Shown in pieces: positions 19,492 through 29,499 of a stretch of 48,069 nt of DNA. Origin of the DNA: Gillisia sp. Its GTDB lineage: Bacteria > Bacteroidota > Bacteroidia > Flavobacteriales > Flavobacteriaceae. Under the pieces are notes generated by a model. The model worked only from the letters and a program-made list of their open reading frames with translations. It did not search any database and was not told where the DNA came from. Where the stretch lies: positions 1-48,069 of the forward strand of contig JAGXIJ010000065.1 in assembly GCA_024635675.1 (NCBI GenBank), given 5' to 3'. Numbering within the stretch: the stretch's first letter is position 1; every line of letters starts with the position of its first letter. The translations under genes were made by a program, and so were the position numbers.

Positions 19492-22400
19492 TTATAGATT
19501 TATGTTTACTTCCTTTTTCTCTTCCAAACTTTTCATTTTTTCTATTCTGTGTCCTGTTGCCAGATTATTTTCAGCATACCGCGGATCTGTGATATAAGCT
19601 TCCTTTCGCATTTTGCTTATTTCAATACTTAAAAAATCAAATTCCTCTGACACATTTCCATACATGGCATAGATTCCCAGTCCTCTAGAACTGAATTTTT
19701 CCGCAATAGGAGGGAAGAGAATAGTGTCAAAAAAATGACCTTCTCTGTCTAAAAAAGTGCCAAAACTCATAGGTTTTCCTTTTGCAGTCTTAGTGTTCTT
19801 AACTGTTACCAAATATCCGTAGATGAGAATATTTTTGTTTAAAAAATGTGCTAAGTCTTTTTGGCCATAGTTTGTTTTAGGCTGTTCTTGCAGTAATTCA
19901 AAATGACTGCAAAGTGGATATCCTAATAATTCTATCTGCTCAAATGCTTCTTCCAGGCAAGTGGTGTGCAAGGCGGGAAGGGTGTAATTCTTGGGCTTCG
20001 GAATAAATAAAGGCAACTGATTAGCCTTTTTAGGTGCTTTGCTTAACTTAAAATGTGCTTCCCAGAGTAATTTATACTTATCTATCCCCGTAAACCGAAA
20101 TGCATTAATTCTTATAAGAATACTTAATTGGTCTATGCTAATGGCAACCCGATTTATAAAATCGTCTAAAGACTTGAATTTGCCATTGAAGTTTCTGTTT
20201 TCAATAATACGTTGTGCTACTCGTGATTCCAGCTCTTTTAAATTTCCAAATCCTAAATAAATAGAGGTGCCTTTTATCGTGTTGTGGTAATCTCCTTCAT
20301 TAATACAAGGAGGTTCTACGGTGCCACCCATCATTTTGGCTTCATGCACATAAAGCTCCGGAGAATAGAAACCACCCCCATTATTAAGGGTTGCCACCAT
20401 ATACTCTAAGGGGAAATAGGTTTTTAGAAATAAACTCTGATAGCTTTCTACTGCATAACTTGCAGAATGACCTTTTGCAAAGGCATATCCCGCAAAGCTT
20501 TTTATTTGATCCCAGACTTCCAAAACCACCTTTTCTTCGATCCCTTTCTCATGGCAGTTGGAGATGAACTTTTCTTCCACTCGTTGAAATTCTTCTCGGG
20601 ATCGATACTTTCCGCTCATTCCGCGCCGCAAGACATCTGCTTCAGCAAGACTTAATCCGGCAAAATAATGGGCCACCTTAATTACATCTTCTTGATACAC
20701 CATGATGCCATAGGTATCGGGCATTATTTTCACCAGTTCTGGATGTGCATTTTCCCGACGTTCTGGGTATCTATGACGAAGAATGTACTCTCGCATCATT
20801 CCGCTCTTTGCCACCCCCGGACGAATAATAGAACTGGCAGCTACCAAGCCCAAATAAGTGTCTGTTTGTAATTTTTTAAGCAACATCCGCATTGCCGGAG
20901 ATTCTACATAAAAGCAGCCTATGCATGCGGCCTCTCTTATTAGATTGTTTATTTTAGGATCTTCTTTAAAGGTCTTCACATCGTGAATATCAAATGGAGC
21001 TGCTTCCGGCTGGTTCTTAGCAATGATATCTAAAGAATCCCTGATTTTCCCTAATCCGCGTTGCGCTAGAATATCGAATTTATAAAGCCCAACATCTTCT
21101 GCAATTACCATATCGAACTGTACGGTAGGAAATCCTTTTGGAGGAAGGTCTAAGGCAGAGAAAGCAGTAAGAGGTTTATTGGAGATGAGTATTCCCCCGG
21201 CATGAATACTTCGGTAATTAGGCATGCCTTGGATAAGCTCTCCGTATTTAATCACTATTTTATGAATATCATCCTGCTCGTTCTTGGGAAGACCACCTTT
21301 ACATAGTTTATCTATATCTTCTTTTGGAAGCCCAAATACTTTTCCTAATTCCCGGATAACGGCTCTGTATTGAAAGGTATTGTAAGTAGCAAGCAATGCA
21401 GTATGAGTGAATTCTTCAAAAATGAATCTGGTGATGTCTTCTCGATCGTTCCAGGAAAAATCTATATCGAAATCTGGTGGACTGGTGCGAAATTCATTTA
21501 TAAAGCGCTCAAAATAGAGATCTAATTCTATGGGGTCTACCTCGGTGATCTGAAGTAAATATGCTACAATACTATTTGCGCCACTGCCTCGCCCTACATA
21601 AAAATATCCCTGTGCTCGGGCATATTCGCAAATACGCCAGTTGATAAGGAAATAGGAAATAAAATTCATTTCCTTGATCACCTTTAACTCAGTAAGCATT
21701 CGTTTTAAAACATTGTCTTTGGCGTTTGGGTAGCGAATAAGAAGCCCCCTTTCGCAAAGTTCCTTTAGAAACCGTTCATCCTCGGCAGAACTTTTTCCAA
21801 AGACTTGTTGGTTTTGTGGTTTTCTGTTTTTGGAAAAATCGAAATTTATAGAGCAAGCTGCAAGTAGGTCTTCGGTATTCTTTAGAATGAAAGGGAAATC
21901 CTCTAAATGCTCTTTTAAGTTTTCAAGAGGACTCATTTGTTCATCTCTATCCGCTTGGTCTTCCGGGGAAAGTTTGCTTAAAAGGGTGTTAGCATTTATG
22001 GCGCGCAACAATCTATGCGCATTAAAATCGCGTTTATTTCTAAATGTAACCGATTGTAGTACCACTAGTTTGGTGGTTAGTGCTTTCAATTTTGAAAACT
22101 TTAATTTTCTTAATTCAGCAATACTTACCCCTATGAATTCATTTGATTCAAATTCAGTTATTTCTGAAGCTAGTATTTTTTCAAAAGGATAAATAACAAA
22201 AGCATTTTCAAATGGAGGGGCTTTATCTGGAATGGCTAGTTTTTGCTGAAGATGTTTAGAAAGGAAATTGTTTAGTTCCTGAAAACCTTCATTGTTCTTT
22301 GCGATGCCTACAAATTGTTGCTGTGCTCCATTTCTAAAATCTATCCCCAAAACAGGATTTATATTATAATCTGAAGCCATTCTCACAAAATTGAGGGAGG

Positions 22401-22527
22401 CCGAAGTATTATTTATGTCTGTAAGCACCAGTTTTTGGACATTATTTTCCCGGGCAAGTTCCAGAAGTTCTATTTCTGAAAAAGTCCCAAAGCGCATGCT
22501 GTAATATGTGTGGTTGTTTAAGTACAA
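19492..22527 (-). CDS. dnaE: DNA polymerase III alpha subunit-like / error-prone DnaE
   Basis: 1011 aa; GRGSGANSIVAYLL, PDFDIDFSWNDRE catalytic aspartates, N-terminal degenerate PHP; operonic with dinB. Confidence 0.88.
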   Translation of the reverse strand: MYLNNHTYYSMRFGTFSEIELLELARENNVQKLVLTDINNTSASLNFVRMASDYNINPVLGIDFRNGAQQQFVGIAKNNEGFQELNNFLSKHLQQKLAIPDKAPPFENAFVIYPFEKILASEITEFESNEFIGVSIAELRKLKFSKLKALTTKLVVLQSVTFRNKRDFNAHRLLRAINANTLLSKLSPEDQADRDEQMSPLENLKEHLEDFPFILKNTEDLLAACSINFDFSKNRKPQNQQVFGKSSAEDERFLKELCERGLLIRYPNAKDNVLKRMLTELKVIKEMNFISYFLINWRICEYARAQGYFYVGRGSGANSIVAYLLQITEVDPIELDLYFERFINEFRTSPPDFDIDFSWNDREDITRFIFEEFTHTALLATYNTFQYRAVIRELGKVFGLPKEDIDKLCKGGLPKNEQDDIHKIVIKYGELIQGMPNYRSIHAGGILISNKPLTAFSALDLPPKGFPTVQFDMVIAEDVGLYKFDILAQRGLGKIRDSLDIIAKNQPEAAPFDIHDVKTFKEDPKINNLIREAACIGCFYVESPAMRMLLKKLQTDTYLGLVAASSIIRPGVAKSGMMREYILRHRYPERRENAHPELVKIMPDTYGIMVYQEDVIKVAHYFAGLSLAEADVLRRGMSGKYRSREEFQRVEEKFISNCHEKGIEEKVVLEVWDQIKSFAGYAFAKGHSASYAVESYQSLFLKTYFPLEYMVATLNNGGGFYSPELYVHEAKMMGGTVEPPCINEGDYHNTIKGTSIYLGFGNLKELESRVAQRIIENRNFNGKFKSLDDFINRVAISIDQLSILIRINAFRFTGIDKYKLLWEAHFKLSKAPKKANQLPLFIPKPKNYTLPALHTTCLEEAFEQIELLGYPLCSHFELLQEQPKTNYGQKDLAHFLNKNILIYGYLVTVKNTKTAKGKPMSFGTFLDREGHFFDTILFPPIAEKFSSRGLGIYAMYGNVSEEFDFLSIEISKMRKEAYITDPRYAENNLATGHRIEKMKSLEEKKEVNINL

Positions 22528-22599: not shown

Positions 22600-23814
22600 T
22601 TATTGCTTTCTATGTGCCAACACTACTGGGGGTTCTCCATTAAAAGGATTGGTCATTCTGCCGATGGTTTTAGCTCCTAAAGAAGCCGCTCTTAATACAC
22701 TTCTGTCTCCATATTTATTTCTAATGTTGTCCATGGCGTTATATAAATGCAGCACCTCTTCGTTATCATCGAACAAATTGATCTGATAATTTCCTCCGGC
22801 TAAATGACTAAAGCGTATCCCAATGAGCCTAACCAATAACCTGCGGTTGTATAATTTTTTGAATAAGTCTTGAAGCTTAGGAAGTAAAATATGATCGGCA
22901 CTGGTGTAGGGAATCTTGAGCTGTTTGGTGTAGGTGTTAAAATCTGAATATCTTATTTTCACTGCGATACAGGAGGTAAGTTTATCGCCACGCCGTAACT
23001 GATACGCAAGATTTTCTGTCATAGCGGTTAAGATGCTGGACAATCTGTTTACATCTATAGTATCTCGGTCGAAGGTGCGTTCGGTGGAGATAGATTTTCT
23101 TTCAGAATAGGGGATAATGGGAGTGTTGTCTATTCCTTGTGCCCGATGCCAGATAGTAGTACCGTTGGCGCCCAATACTTTTTGGATCATTTCCAGTGGC
23201 ATTTCTTGTATTGTTTTTATATGTCTAACGCCTAAATTGCGCAGCGTTTGATAGGTTTTGTCCCCTACCATCGGTATTTTTTTTACTGAAAGGGGTGCTA
23301 AAAACTCTTTTTCAAATCCGGAATCTATTTTTAGTTGATTGTTGGGTTTCGCTTCATTAGTTGCCACTTTAGACACGATCTTATTTACAGAAAGTCCGAA
23401 TGAAATAGGCAATCCTGTTTCCCGAATAATTTTTTTACGCAACTCGGTAGCATATTTATAACAGCCAAAAAAGCGATCCATTCCGGTAAGATCTGCATAG
23501 AATTCATCGATACTTGATTTTTCAAAAAGCGGGACCTCTGCTCTTATTATATCGGTTACATCTTTAGAATGTTTGCTGTAAGTACTGGCATCTCCTCTTA
23601 TAATAGTGGCTTCCGGGCATAATTGTCGGGCTAGTTTCATAGACATTCCCGAATGCACCCCGAAAGCTCTGGTCTCATAACTACATGCCGCAACCACTCC
23701 GCGATCACTAGTGCCGCCAACTAATAAAGGCCGGTTTTGTAATCGAGAATCTATTTTCCTTTCTACAGAAACATAGAAAGTATCTAGATCCAGATGTAAG
23801 ACTGTTTTTGCCAT
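22600..23814 (-). CDS. dinB: DNA polymerase IV (Y-family)
   Basis: 404 aa; VLHLDLDTFYVSVERK, ACSYETRAFGVHSGM, SSIDEFYADLTG. Confidence 0.95.
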   Translation of the reverse strand: MAKTVLHLDLDTFYVSVERKIDSRLQNRPLLVGGTSDRGVVAACSYETRAFGVHSGMSMKLARQLCPEATIIRGDASTYSKHSKDVTDIIRAEVPLFEKSSIDEFYADLTGMDRFFGCYKYATELRKKIIRETGLPISFGLSVNKIVSKVATNEAKPNNQLKIDSGFEKEFLAPLSVKKIPMVGDKTYQTLRNLGVRHIKTIQEMPLEMIQKVLGANGTTIWHRAQGIDNTPIIPYSERKSISTERTFDRDTIDVNRLSSILTAMTENLAYQLRRGDKLTSCIAVKIRYSDFNTYTKQLKIPYTSADHILLPKLQDLFKKLYNRRLLVRLIGIRFSHLAGGNYQINLFDDNEEVLHLYNAMDNIRNKYGDRSVLRAASLGAKTIGRMTNPFNGEPPVVLAHRKQ

Positions 23815-23850
23815 TTTATATCCTATTCCGTTTTAAATTTGGAATCATTA

Positions 23851-23858
23851 CAAAATTA
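23851..23858 (-). promoter_or_regulatory. Candidate -7 element (TAATTTTG) of the dinB-dnaE operon
   Basis: Minus-strand TAnnTTTG match about 37 nt upstream of the dinB start, abutting the 23859-23871 palindrome. Confidence 0.4.
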
Positions 23859-23871
23859 TGGAATTATTCCA
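23859..23871. promoter_or_regulatory. Operator candidate O1 TGGAATTATTCCA
   Basis: Palindrome GGAATTATTCC in the divergent S24-repressor/dinB region. Confidence 0.6.
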
Positions 23872-23877
23872 TTTAAA

Positions 23878-23890
23878 CGGAATAATTCCA
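23878..23890. promoter_or_regulatory. Operator candidate O2 CGGAATAATTCCA
   Basis: GGAATAATTCC, the reverse complement of the O1 core; centres 19 bp apart. Confidence 0.6.
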
Positions 23891-23899
23891 ATATAAAAA

Positions 23900-24700
23900 A
23901 TGGACTTATTCCAAAAAATGTTATATTTGGATATGGGAACAGATGTAACACTTGAAATTAAGCGATTTAAGGAAATTCGCGACGATCATAATTATACGCA
24001 AAGTGAATTTGCAGAATTGCTTGGGATTAAAAATTCTACAGCTGATATTGAACGCGGTCGCACAAAATTATCTGGTAAGATTGTCTCCGAATTATTACGC
24101 CAATTTGGAGTGAATCCCCTTTGGCTATTTGGAGAAAGCTCCCAAAAAATCTTACAAATCAATAAAGGAGATGTGAGCCCAAAAGTTATTACCGTAAATA
24201 GTGGAGAGGAAGAAAATATCATTTTAGTAAATCAAAAGGCTGCGGCCGGATATCCTCATAATGTTCAGGATGTAGAATGGTACCAGCAATTACCTGCTTT
24301 TGATATTCCCTTACCCGAATATAGAAATGCTTCGTATCGCGGATTCCAGGTAGAAGGAGATAGTATGATGCCTAACTTACGTCCAGGGGAATGGGTTCTA
24401 GGAAAGGGAATTCCAAGTATAAATGAGATAAGCAGCAATAAGATCTATGTGGTTGTATTATACGATTCTGTTCTTGTAAAGAAGATCAAGAAACTGGACG
24501 ATCCTTTTAAAGTGGTACTTATTTCTATTAATGAAGAATATGCACCGGTAGAAGTCAAAATAAGCGATATTCAGGAATTATGGCAGGTAAATAGCAAGCT
24601 TACTTTTAGCATAGATGCCACCTCAGAAAGTGGACTATTAAGACAATTGCAAGAATCTATGGAAGAATTGAAGAGCGAGTTCAAAAGTTTTAAAAGCTAA
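23900..24700 (+). CDS. XRE-HTH / S24 peptidase LexA/CI-like repressor
   Basis: HTH FKEIRDDHNYTQSEFAELLGI; cleavage site KAAAGYP; Ser in GDSMMPNL; Lys in YDSVLVKKI. The real start may be 23933. Confidence 0.88.
   Translation: MDLFQKMLYLDMGTDVTLEIKRFKEIRDDHNYTQSEFAELLGIKNSTADIERGRTKLSGKIVSELLRQFGVNPLWLFGESSQKILQINKGDVSPKVITVNSGEEENIILVNQKAAAGYPHNVQDVEWYQQLPAFDIPLPEYRNASYRGFQVEGDSMMPNLRPGEWVLGKGIPSINEISSNKIYVVVLYDSVLVKKIKKLDDPFKVVLISINEEYAPVEVKISDIQELWQVNSKLTFSIDATSESGLLRQLQESMEELKSEFKSFKS
23901..23913. promoter_or_regulatory. Operator candidate O3 TGGACTTATTCCA (imperfect)
   Basis: Matches O1 except one position; 23 bp centre-to-centre from O2. Confidence 0.45.
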
Positions 24701-24974: not shown

Positions 24975-25256
24975 TTACATATCGTCTGTTCCTTCGATTT
25001 CAGCTTCTACTTCGTTACCAGCTTTTTTTACAGCATCCCCGGTTTTATGAGCAGCTTTATTAACAGCATCTCCAACATCATCTGCAGCTTCTTCTAGGTC
25101 ATCACCTACATCGTCCATATCATCGTTCATGTCATCCATATCGTCCATATCATCACTCATTTCCATATCATCACTTTCCTTTTTTGTATCTCTACATGAA
25201 GTGAAGAATGCAGTAAGCGTAAACGCTGTTGCTAATACTAAAATTGATTTTTTCAT
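24975..25256 (-). CDS. Small acidic lipoprotein (SCRDT family) with DDM repeats
   Basis: 93 aa; FFTSCRDTKKESDDMEMSDDMDDMDDMNDDMDDVGDDLEEAADDVGDAV. Confidence 0.75.
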   Translation of the reverse strand: MKKSILVLATAFTLTAFFTSCRDTKKESDDMEMSDDMDDMDDMNDDMDDVGDDLEEAADDVGDAVNKAAHKTGDAVKKAGNEVEAEIEGTDDM

Positions 25257-25374
25257 AAGTTTAAAATTTATAGTTATTGGTTTGTTTGATAATCGTGACT
25301 AATTAACAGTCAATTCTTTATAAATATATATAAAAAAGGATAAAATCTTTAAAATTTATAAAAATATGAGATAA

Positions 25375-25611
25375 TTAATTATCGTCCCCTATTTTATCAA
25401 TTTCCTGATCTATCTCCTTATTTACTTCTTTATCAACTTTTTCTGCTGTTCGTTCAAGGATTCCTTTGCGCTCCTCTACAGGTTCCGCTTTTTCGGATTC
25501 AACTCTAACTTCTTTTACTATAACCGTTTCTTTTTCGGCTGTGTCTCTACAAGAAATAAGTGTGGTTGCTCCCGTTAAAATTAAGGCCGTTAAATAAATT
25601 ACTCGTTTCAT
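25375..25611 (-). CDS. Small charged lipoprotein (SCRDT family)
   Basis: MKRVIYLTALILTGATTLISCRDTAEKETVIVKEV...; start moved from 25623 to the Met before the signal peptide. Confidence 0.72.
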   Translation of the reverse strand: MKRVIYLTALILTGATTLISCRDTAEKETVIVKEVRVESEKAEPVEERKGILERTAEKVDKEVNKEIDQEIDKIGDDN

Positions 25612-25725
25612 ATTAATTTGCATTTCAATTTAGATATCGAAATTACTACTTAATTAAATGGAGTGTTTATGTTTTTAGAATATTTTAGCAAAAAAAGGAC
25701 CTTGAAACCAAAATGGTAGATGATT

Positions 25726-28218: not shown

Positions 28219-29499
28219 ATGAAAAAATTATTACCAATAATTTGCGGGCTTATATTCGCTTCAACAGTAAATGCTCAGGATATTTATATCCAAAGCGGAA
28301 AATTAGTAGACACTAAGAATGGGAAAGTGCTGTCTGAAAAAACAATTATTGTTTCCGGAGATAGAATTAAAAGTGTTGAAGACGGATTTGTTCAGCCTAA
28401 AAATGAAGGTGATAGTTTAATAGATCTTCGGGAGATGACTGTTCTTCCTGGTTTAACAGATATGCATGTGCATATTGAAGAGGAATCTAATCCTGGTGCA
28501 TATTTAGAGCCCTTTACTTTAAATGAGGCAGATCGTGCATTTAATTCCTTAAGCTTTGCAAAAGTAACTCTCATGGCTGGATTCACAAGCGTTAGAGATC
28601 TTGGTGGAAGCGGAGTGAACATTGCTTTAAGAAATGCTATAAATAATGGAAAGGTAGTTGGCCCAAGAATATTTACGGCAGGAAAATCTCTTGCTACAAC
28701 TGGGGGGCATGCAGATCCTACCAATGGTTTTAACGATAATTTAGTTGGAGATCCGGGACCAAAAGAAGGAGTAGTGAATGGGCCGGAAGAAGCAAAGAAA
28801 GCGGTAAGACAACGGTATAAAAATGGAGCCGACCTTATTAAGATCACAGCAACCGGAGGAGTTTTAAGTGTTGCAAAATCAAGTTCTAATCCTCAATTTT
28901 CCATTGAAGAAATAAAAGCTATTACAGAAACAGCAAAAGACTACGGATTTCATGTAGCGGCGCATGCACATGGGGACGAAGGAATGCAACGCGCAGTGAA
29001 AGGCGGGGTTAAGACCATTGAACATGGAACTTTAATGAGTGAGCAAACTATGGATCTTATGAAAGAATTTGGGACCTATTTGGTGCCAACCATTACTGCG
29101 GGAAAGGAAGTGACAGAAAAAGCAAAAATTAAAGACTATTACCCTGAGATTATCGTGGCTAAAGCTTTAGAAATTGGACCAAAAATTCAAAATACTTTCA
29201 GCAAAGCATACAAAAGGGGAGTGCCAATTGCATTTGGAACAGATGCAGGTGTGTTTCCTCATGGACAAAATGGAAAAGAATTCGGGTTTATGGTTGAAGC
29301 AGGAATGCCAGCGATGGCAGCCATTCAAAGTGCAACCATTACTCCGGCTAAAATATTAAACATGGAAACCGAATCTGGGCAACTTGCTTCAGGATTTTAT
29401 GCAGATATTATTGCAGTAAAAGAAGATCCAACCAAAAATATTAAAACCTTAGAAGATGTGAGATTTGTAATGAAAGACGGTAAGGTTTATAAAAACTGA
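28219..29499 (+). CDS. Secreted amidohydrolase family protein
   Basis: 426 aa; signal peptide; TVLPGLTDMHVHIEEE, HVAAHAHGDEGMQRAV, IAFGTDAGVFPHGQN. Confidence 0.9.
   Translation: MKKLLPIICGLIFASTVNAQDIYIQSGKLVDTKNGKVLSEKTIIVSGDRIKSVEDGFVQPKNEGDSLIDLREMTVLPGLTDMHVHIEEESNPGAYLEPFTLNEADRAFNSLSFAKVTLMAGFTSVRDLGGSGVNIALRNAINNGKVVGPRIFTAGKSLATTGGHADPTNGFNDNLVGDPGPKEGVVNGPEEAKKAVRQRYKNGADLIKITATGGVLSVAKSSSNPQFSIEEIKAITETAKDYGFHVAAHAHGDEGMQRAVKGGVKTIEHGTLMSEQTMDLMKEFGTYLVPTITAGKEVTEKAKIKDYYPEIIVAKALEIGPKIQNTFSKAYKRGVPIAFGTDAGVFPHGQNGKEFGFMVEAGMPAMAAIQSATITPAKILNMETESGQLASGFYADIIAVKEDPTKNIKTLEDVRFVMKDGKVYKN

Follow-up and report, generated by a model that had tools for sequence, protein, structure and literature searches.

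The window, a stretch of 48,069 nucleotides from Gillisia sp., is contig C113 of a genome estimated to be 66% complete. It contains a repressor gene (23933-24700, plus strand) for a non-canonical LexA of 255 aa, recognized by profile matches to HTH_3 and Peptidase_S24, and the nearest relatives of this repressor are found in Gillisia. The divergent target gene dinB (22600-23814, minus strand) encodes a Y-family DNA polymerase IV of 404 aa. A dnaE-type gene with a TTG start (19492-22527, minus strand) lies 72 bp behind dinB and encodes an error-prone polymerase III alpha subunit of 1011 aa; it is probably the second gene of a dinB operon. The two polymerase genes also adjoin each other in the loci L009, L011 and L013. 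For the repressor, the ORF listing preferred an alternative ATG at 23900 which falls inside operator O3 (see below), and the alignment of orthologues supports 23933 as the start instead. After the repressor gene, 24975-25623 on the minus strand encodes two predicted lipoproteins that are small, acidic and repetitive (MKKSILVLATAFTLTAFFTSCRDT... and an 82-aa relative). Similar proteins occur near the repressor in L080 and L083.

Promoter numbering was derived from the flavobacterial -7 box TAnnTTTG, which sits at -12 to -5 (PMC9723704). The predicted -7 box of dinB, TAATTTTG (23852-23859, minus strand), is retained by ten Gillisia dinB promoters; L012, in which dinB does not adjoin the repressor gene, has lost it. 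The box predicts a dinB start site at about 23847 and a 33-nt leader. A clear -33 TTG was not found in the dinB promoter. The predicted -7 box of the repressor gene, TATATTTG (23922-23929, plus strand), ends 3 bases before the ATG and predicts a start site at about 23934, at the ATG, and therefore a leaderless or nearly leaderless repressor mRNA. In 55 of 102 orthologues a strict TAnnTTTG follows the last operator at the corresponding distance, and a -33 TTG is often supplied by the left half of O3 (64/102 loci).

The repressor protein and its class

Both domains of the window repressor scored over the Pfam cut-offs (HTH_3, PF01381, E=1.2e-9; Peptidase_S24, E=7.9e-12), and the profile search detected HTH_3 in place of the LexA winged-helix domain PF01726, which was not found in this protein. 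The AlphaFold model shows a helical N-terminal domain without a wing, at a mean pLDDT of 59 and with confident prediction for approximately residues 10-40 only. The protein has an Ala105-Gly106 cleavage site and a Ser144/Lys183 dyad; the Ala-Gly, Ser and Lys residues are kept in all 99 of the 102 orthologues that have letters at these positions.

According to Sanchez-Osuna et al. 2021 (PMC8565304), S24 proteins with a CI-like HTH run the SOS response of Bacteroidetes, and the class that recognizes GGA-N5-TCC occurs mainly in Flavobacteriaceae, many of which carry both this and a CTAA-N5-TTAG class. The 'non-canonical LexA' of Salegentibacter agarivorans DSM 23515 was described there as giving specific EMSA shifts on GGA-N5-TCC; changing either half-site or the spacer length abolished binding, changes inside the spacer were tolerated, and the repressor bound its own promoter. 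Its targets were induced by mitomycin C as measured by RT-qPCR (PMC8565304). The window repressor is 72% identical over its full length to the orthologue of that strain (locus L024, presumed to match accession WP_075324850.1), and the HTH recognition region is the same in both, from TQSEFAELL through RTKLSGK. GGA-N5-TCC sites are present in the repressor's own promoter and upstream of dinB. Judged by their sequences, the window protein and its operators are another case of the published GGA-N5-TCC class.

Operators between the repressor gene and dinB

The intergenic region contains palindromes that have GGA-N5-TCC as their essential core. Running from dinB to the repressor, these were named O0 (weak), O1, O2 and O3. 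O1 (TGGAATTATTCCA, 23859-23871, core 23860-23870) is directly upstream of the dinB -7 box, O2 (CGGAATAATTCCA, 23878-23890, core 23879-23889) is common to the dinB and repressor promoters, and O3 (TGGACTTATTCCA, 23901-23913, core 23902-23912) lies on the repressor promoter side. Their core starts are 19 and then 23 bp apart. The sequences, coordinates and spacings that an earlier note on this DNA had given for these three sites were exact, and its -7 candidate for dinB does abut an operator, overlapping the T at 23859 of the first 13-mer. That note missed the weak fourth slot, O0 (GGAATCATTAC, or GTAATGATTCC on the minus strand; 23841-23851), which has one mismatch to GGA-N5-TCC and, at a distance of exactly 19 bp from O1, covers the site where dinB transcription is predicted to start. 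Its remark that no other GGAATnATTCC copy was noticed in the window by eye agrees with our count of two exact GGAATNATTCC copies, the third palindrome being one base off. The operator is palindromic as it proposed, but TGGAATnATTCCA is too strict a description, the recognized core being GGA-N5-TCC; O3 (GGACTTATTCC) fits this motif despite its C because spacer changes are tolerated.

Of 1000 windows resampled from a Markov model that preserved the dinucleotide make-up, 1 had three exact GGA-N5-TCC sites in a span of 54 bp; in 200 such windows, four GGAATNATTCC-type sites, each with no more than one mismatch, never fell within 72 bp. Over the whole window GGA-N5-TCC was counted 14 times against 8.5 expected, which is a mild enrichment only, as 10 of 100 shuffles reached 14. 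The operator signal resides in clustering and conservation, rather than in motif count. With the predicted start sites, O3 would cover approximately -32 to -22 and O2 -55 to -45 of the repressor promoter, while in the dinB promoter O2 is predicted at about -42/-32, O1 at -23/-13 and O0 at -4/+7.

Conservation and modular arrangement of the operators

The orthologue set comprised 102 upstream regions with a protein identity of at least 44%, from which L021 was excluded since it is at a contig edge; the spacing and density count took in L021 too, and its two artefactual sites change nothing. At least one exact GGA-N5-TCC was found in every one of the 102 regions, at 7.6 per kb compared to 0.15 per kb in flanking DNA; as the relatives are non-independent, such counts express conservation and not separate events. 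This conservation, together with the binding of the motif and of its own promoter by the Salegentibacter orthologue (PMC8565304), supports the earlier proposal that the sites are operators of the adjacent S24 repressor and serve autoregulation. Neighboring sites were spaced by 18-20 bp in 35 cases, 21-23 bp in 68, 30-32 bp in 12 and 40-43 bp in 13, with few others; the spacing in Salegentibacter is 30 bp, not 23.

The divergent gene at orthologous loci often belongs to another published SOS-regulon class, these being rSAM_link_UDG (TIGR03916), the TIGR03915 DNA-repair protein and dinB; in L121 it is an apparent SOS-associated peptidase, recognized from its MCGR start only. Of the 45 loci with a divergent SOS gene, 41 have a pair of sites 18-20 bp apart, compared with 10 of the 57 other loci (Fisher P = 3e-14, relatedness not taken into account). 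Six of these ten exceptions do have a divergent SOS gene: in five Aquimarina loci the same repair genes follow a small endonuclease-like gene, and L010 matches by identity a genome in which dinB is adjacent (L153). In the Aquimarina loci (L074, L077, L079, L083 and L084) the endonuclease-like gene, coding for 125-142 aa, is the first of the divergent SOS operon and is followed by the rSAM_link_UDG gene, which is truncated or broken in L083. This small gene is a possible new member of the regulon.

Loci where the repressor and dinB have separated show how the sites are divided. The repressors of one Gillisia clade (L005-L008, L041) are apart from dinB and keep the O2-O3 pair only. In four congeners (L145-L148) dinB is located away from the repressor. 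Its promoter retains O1 and O2 along with the weak O0, but at the O3 slot GGAATAAGTCC has degenerated into variants like CAAAATCTTCC. The control of dinB by these sites, as suggested earlier, is thus supported by their staying with dinB where it does not adjoin the repressor. We infer that the repressor-side clade and the dinB-side congeners represent the same lineage. Since each side keeps its own operators after separation, O2-O3 (21-23 bp) can be assigned as the repressor module and O0-O1-O2 (18-20 bp) as the module of the divergent operon, and by its sequence the window array is a fusion of both with O2 in common. This array grammar provides a testable assignment of operator to promoter.

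More distant dinB copies of the window type also have, immediately ahead of the ATG, two sites spaced by 19 bp. In 11 loci of a second dinB paralogue (33% identical), no GGA-N5-TCC sites were found. A second dinB copy, 61-64% identical to that of the window, is present in L230, L159 and L160 and has two operators of its own at a spacing of 19 bp; the L230 copy is divergent from a dnaE gene, and there one operator pair may control both.

Sites elsewhere in the genome

Loose single-site scans, dominated by chance, gave 68 matches to GGAWWWWWTCC against 47 for the reversed control and 30 against 20 for WGGAWWWWWTCCW, and most of these candidates were not near SOS genes. Requiring pairs 18-23 bp apart removed most of the noise, with 4 pairs in the own genome and none for the control. 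In each of the 16 genus genomes searched, such pairs outnumbered those of the reversed control pattern, and the commonest spacing was 19 bp by a hand count among the matches listed. The family-level pair search, with spacings of 14-33 bp, was a rough check by eye only. In this genome the pairs mark the window and a GIY-YIG/DnaQ-type exonuclease gene. In congeners, pairs are located upstream of a PA0069-family radical SAM gene and of a UvrC-like gene. The GIY-YIG exonuclease and the PA0069-family radical SAM protein are published regulon classes according to PMC8565304. The recA locus of this genome has no exact site, in agreement with the report there that recA is uninduced in S. agarivorans.

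A further GGA-N5-TCC pair 19 bp apart occurs at L240 (G000:C121:1255-1284); it may be due to chance, as the cores are not A+T rich throughout. In three loci of distant S24 repressors of about 30% identity (L126, L127 and L128), the opposite strand carries a dnaE-type gene whose start is 50-66 bp away; these repressors perhaps belong to the other Bacteroidetes LexA class. This genome also encodes a second S24/HTH protein (L215; G000:C103, ~28310-29066) that has Ala-Gly and Ser/Lys residues, with no GGA-N5-TCC or CTAA-N5-TTAG upstream of its gene.

A proposed bidirectional SOS switch and its alternatives

We propose, with a probability of about 0.93, that the locus is a bidirectional SOS switch in which an S24/CI-type non-canonical LexA acts on GGA-N5-TCC operators common to its own gene and the divergent dinB-dnaE operon. 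Dimers of the repressor would bind the operators, O2 and O3 shutting the repressor's own promoter while O2, O1 and weakly O0 tile the dinB-dnaE core promoter from about -42 to +7. Upon DNA damage, RecA filaments would trigger self-cleavage of the repressor at Ala105-Gly106, and the emptied operators would allow expression of both dinB-dnaE and the repressor. The present analysis contributes the sequence, the conservation, the site geometry, the catalytic residues and the link of O1/O2 to the divergent gene. For the Salegentibacter orthologue, PMC8565304 demonstrated binding, a dependence on both half-sites, and induction by mitomycin. Self-cleavage in this strain, the start sites and the cooperative filling of sites spaced 18-23 bp apart are what we infer from these data.

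Cooperative binding is plausible; the 19- and 23-bp spacings are not whole helical turns and cooperativity is therefore not guaranteed. It is quite conceivable, at somewhat less than even odds, that the sites are real repressor operators that are each bound independently, their spacings resulting from promoter geometry alone. This would fit the fixed distance of O3 from the -7 box and the frequent supply of the -33 TTG by its left half, the retention by each promoter of its own sites only, and the 30-bp rather than 23-bp spacing in Salegentibacter. However, the same 18-19-bp pair is found at unrelated promoters, those of the PA0069-family radical SAM, GIY-YIG exonuclease, UvrC-like and dinB genes, although these pairs lie at differing distances from the start codon.

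Within the proposed switch, O0 resembles a sub-optimal operator that has been conserved where transcription of the divergent gene starts. Among 36 recognizable three-site arrays, the slot 19 bp beyond O1 was perfect in 3, deviated at one base in 29 and at more than one in 4, while control offsets had at most one mismatch in 0 of 180 cases. In Gillisia dinB promoters the slot reads GTA-N5-TCC in 10 out of 10, and in other genera the mismatch is of the same kind in the opposite half. Because a dyad substitution abolished binding in the published EMSA (PMC8565304), O0 may not be bound alone. A tentative and rather doubtful extension is a modular four-slot array with a deliberately weak start-site operator of the divergent repair operon that fills only cooperatively. 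If true, the repair operon would be released earlier or more gradedly than the repressor gene, and the slot could accommodate one repair operon in exchange for another. Whether the conserved weak site sets the order of mutagenic repair and repressor resynthesis after damage is testable too. Equally doubtful is the reading of O0 as no operator at all, with the conserved GTA-N5-TCC reflecting start-site or leader sequence of the divergent gene: O0 overlaps or abuts the dinB -7 box, and the single dyad substitution that stopped binding in vitro would be in line with this, but the slot is perfect in three Altibacter-type loci, the mismatch is in the left half in some genera and in the right half in others, and in every case the site retains its other half and lies exactly 19 bp from O1.

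Control of the locus by a different regulator, either the CTAA-N5-TTAG Bacteroidetes LexA class or the second S24 protein (G000:C103:28557), is very improbable. Both classes coexist in many Flavobacteriaceae (PMC8565304) and a second S24 protein is present in this genome, but its gene has no GGA-N5-TCC site upstream, and the protein adjacent to the array is the orthologue of the tested GGA-class regulator. CTAA-N5-TTAG was not found near the locus, and control through this motif was rejected. The palindromes could be chance AT-rich repeats or RNA hairpins without a regulatory role with negligible probability only. GGA-N5-TCC is short, with 14 copies in the window against 8.5 expected, but its clustering and the published binding by the orthologue (PMC8565304) argue against this, and conservation in 102/102 loci rules it out.

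Comparison with known systems

The locus resembles the canonical LexA/SOS box system in having an autoregulated, damage-cleaved repressor of error-prone polymerases, and differs from it in the motif and in the use of HTH_3 instead of the LexA winged helix. The lambda CI repressor combines an all-helical HTH with an S24 domain, as does the window repressor, and its three-operator right region serves two divergent promoters. The window array is similar in that several operators with short gaps serve two divergent promoters, one of which is the repressor's own. Unlike in lambda, all promoters here appear repressed, and host genes for DNA repair take the divergent position; any positive autoregulation or cooperativity of the window array is hypothetical. 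This comparison is based on general knowledge and on the structural models of PMC8565304.

The closest system is the GGA-N5-TCC non-canonical LexA of S. agarivorans (PMC8565304), with which the window shares the protein family, the motif and autoregulation. The target classes are also the same: dinB-dnaE, SplB-type radical SAM, the COG4277/COG1573 DNA-repair operon, GIY-YIG exonuclease and SOS-associated peptidase. The regulator, its motif and its regulon were thus already published in 2021 (PMC8565304), and our results are a raw-sequence confirmation of a recently discovered SOS system. The array spacing, the weak O0 and the two-module organization were not found in the main text of that paper, the supplements of which might list the array spacing. 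In Gillisia, unlike in S. agarivorans, the dinB-dnaE operon is divergent from the repressor with common operators, which places the mutagenic polymerases directly against their repressor in this genus. To the known system, the present analysis adds a weak fourth site and an array of two modules that have split in evolution.
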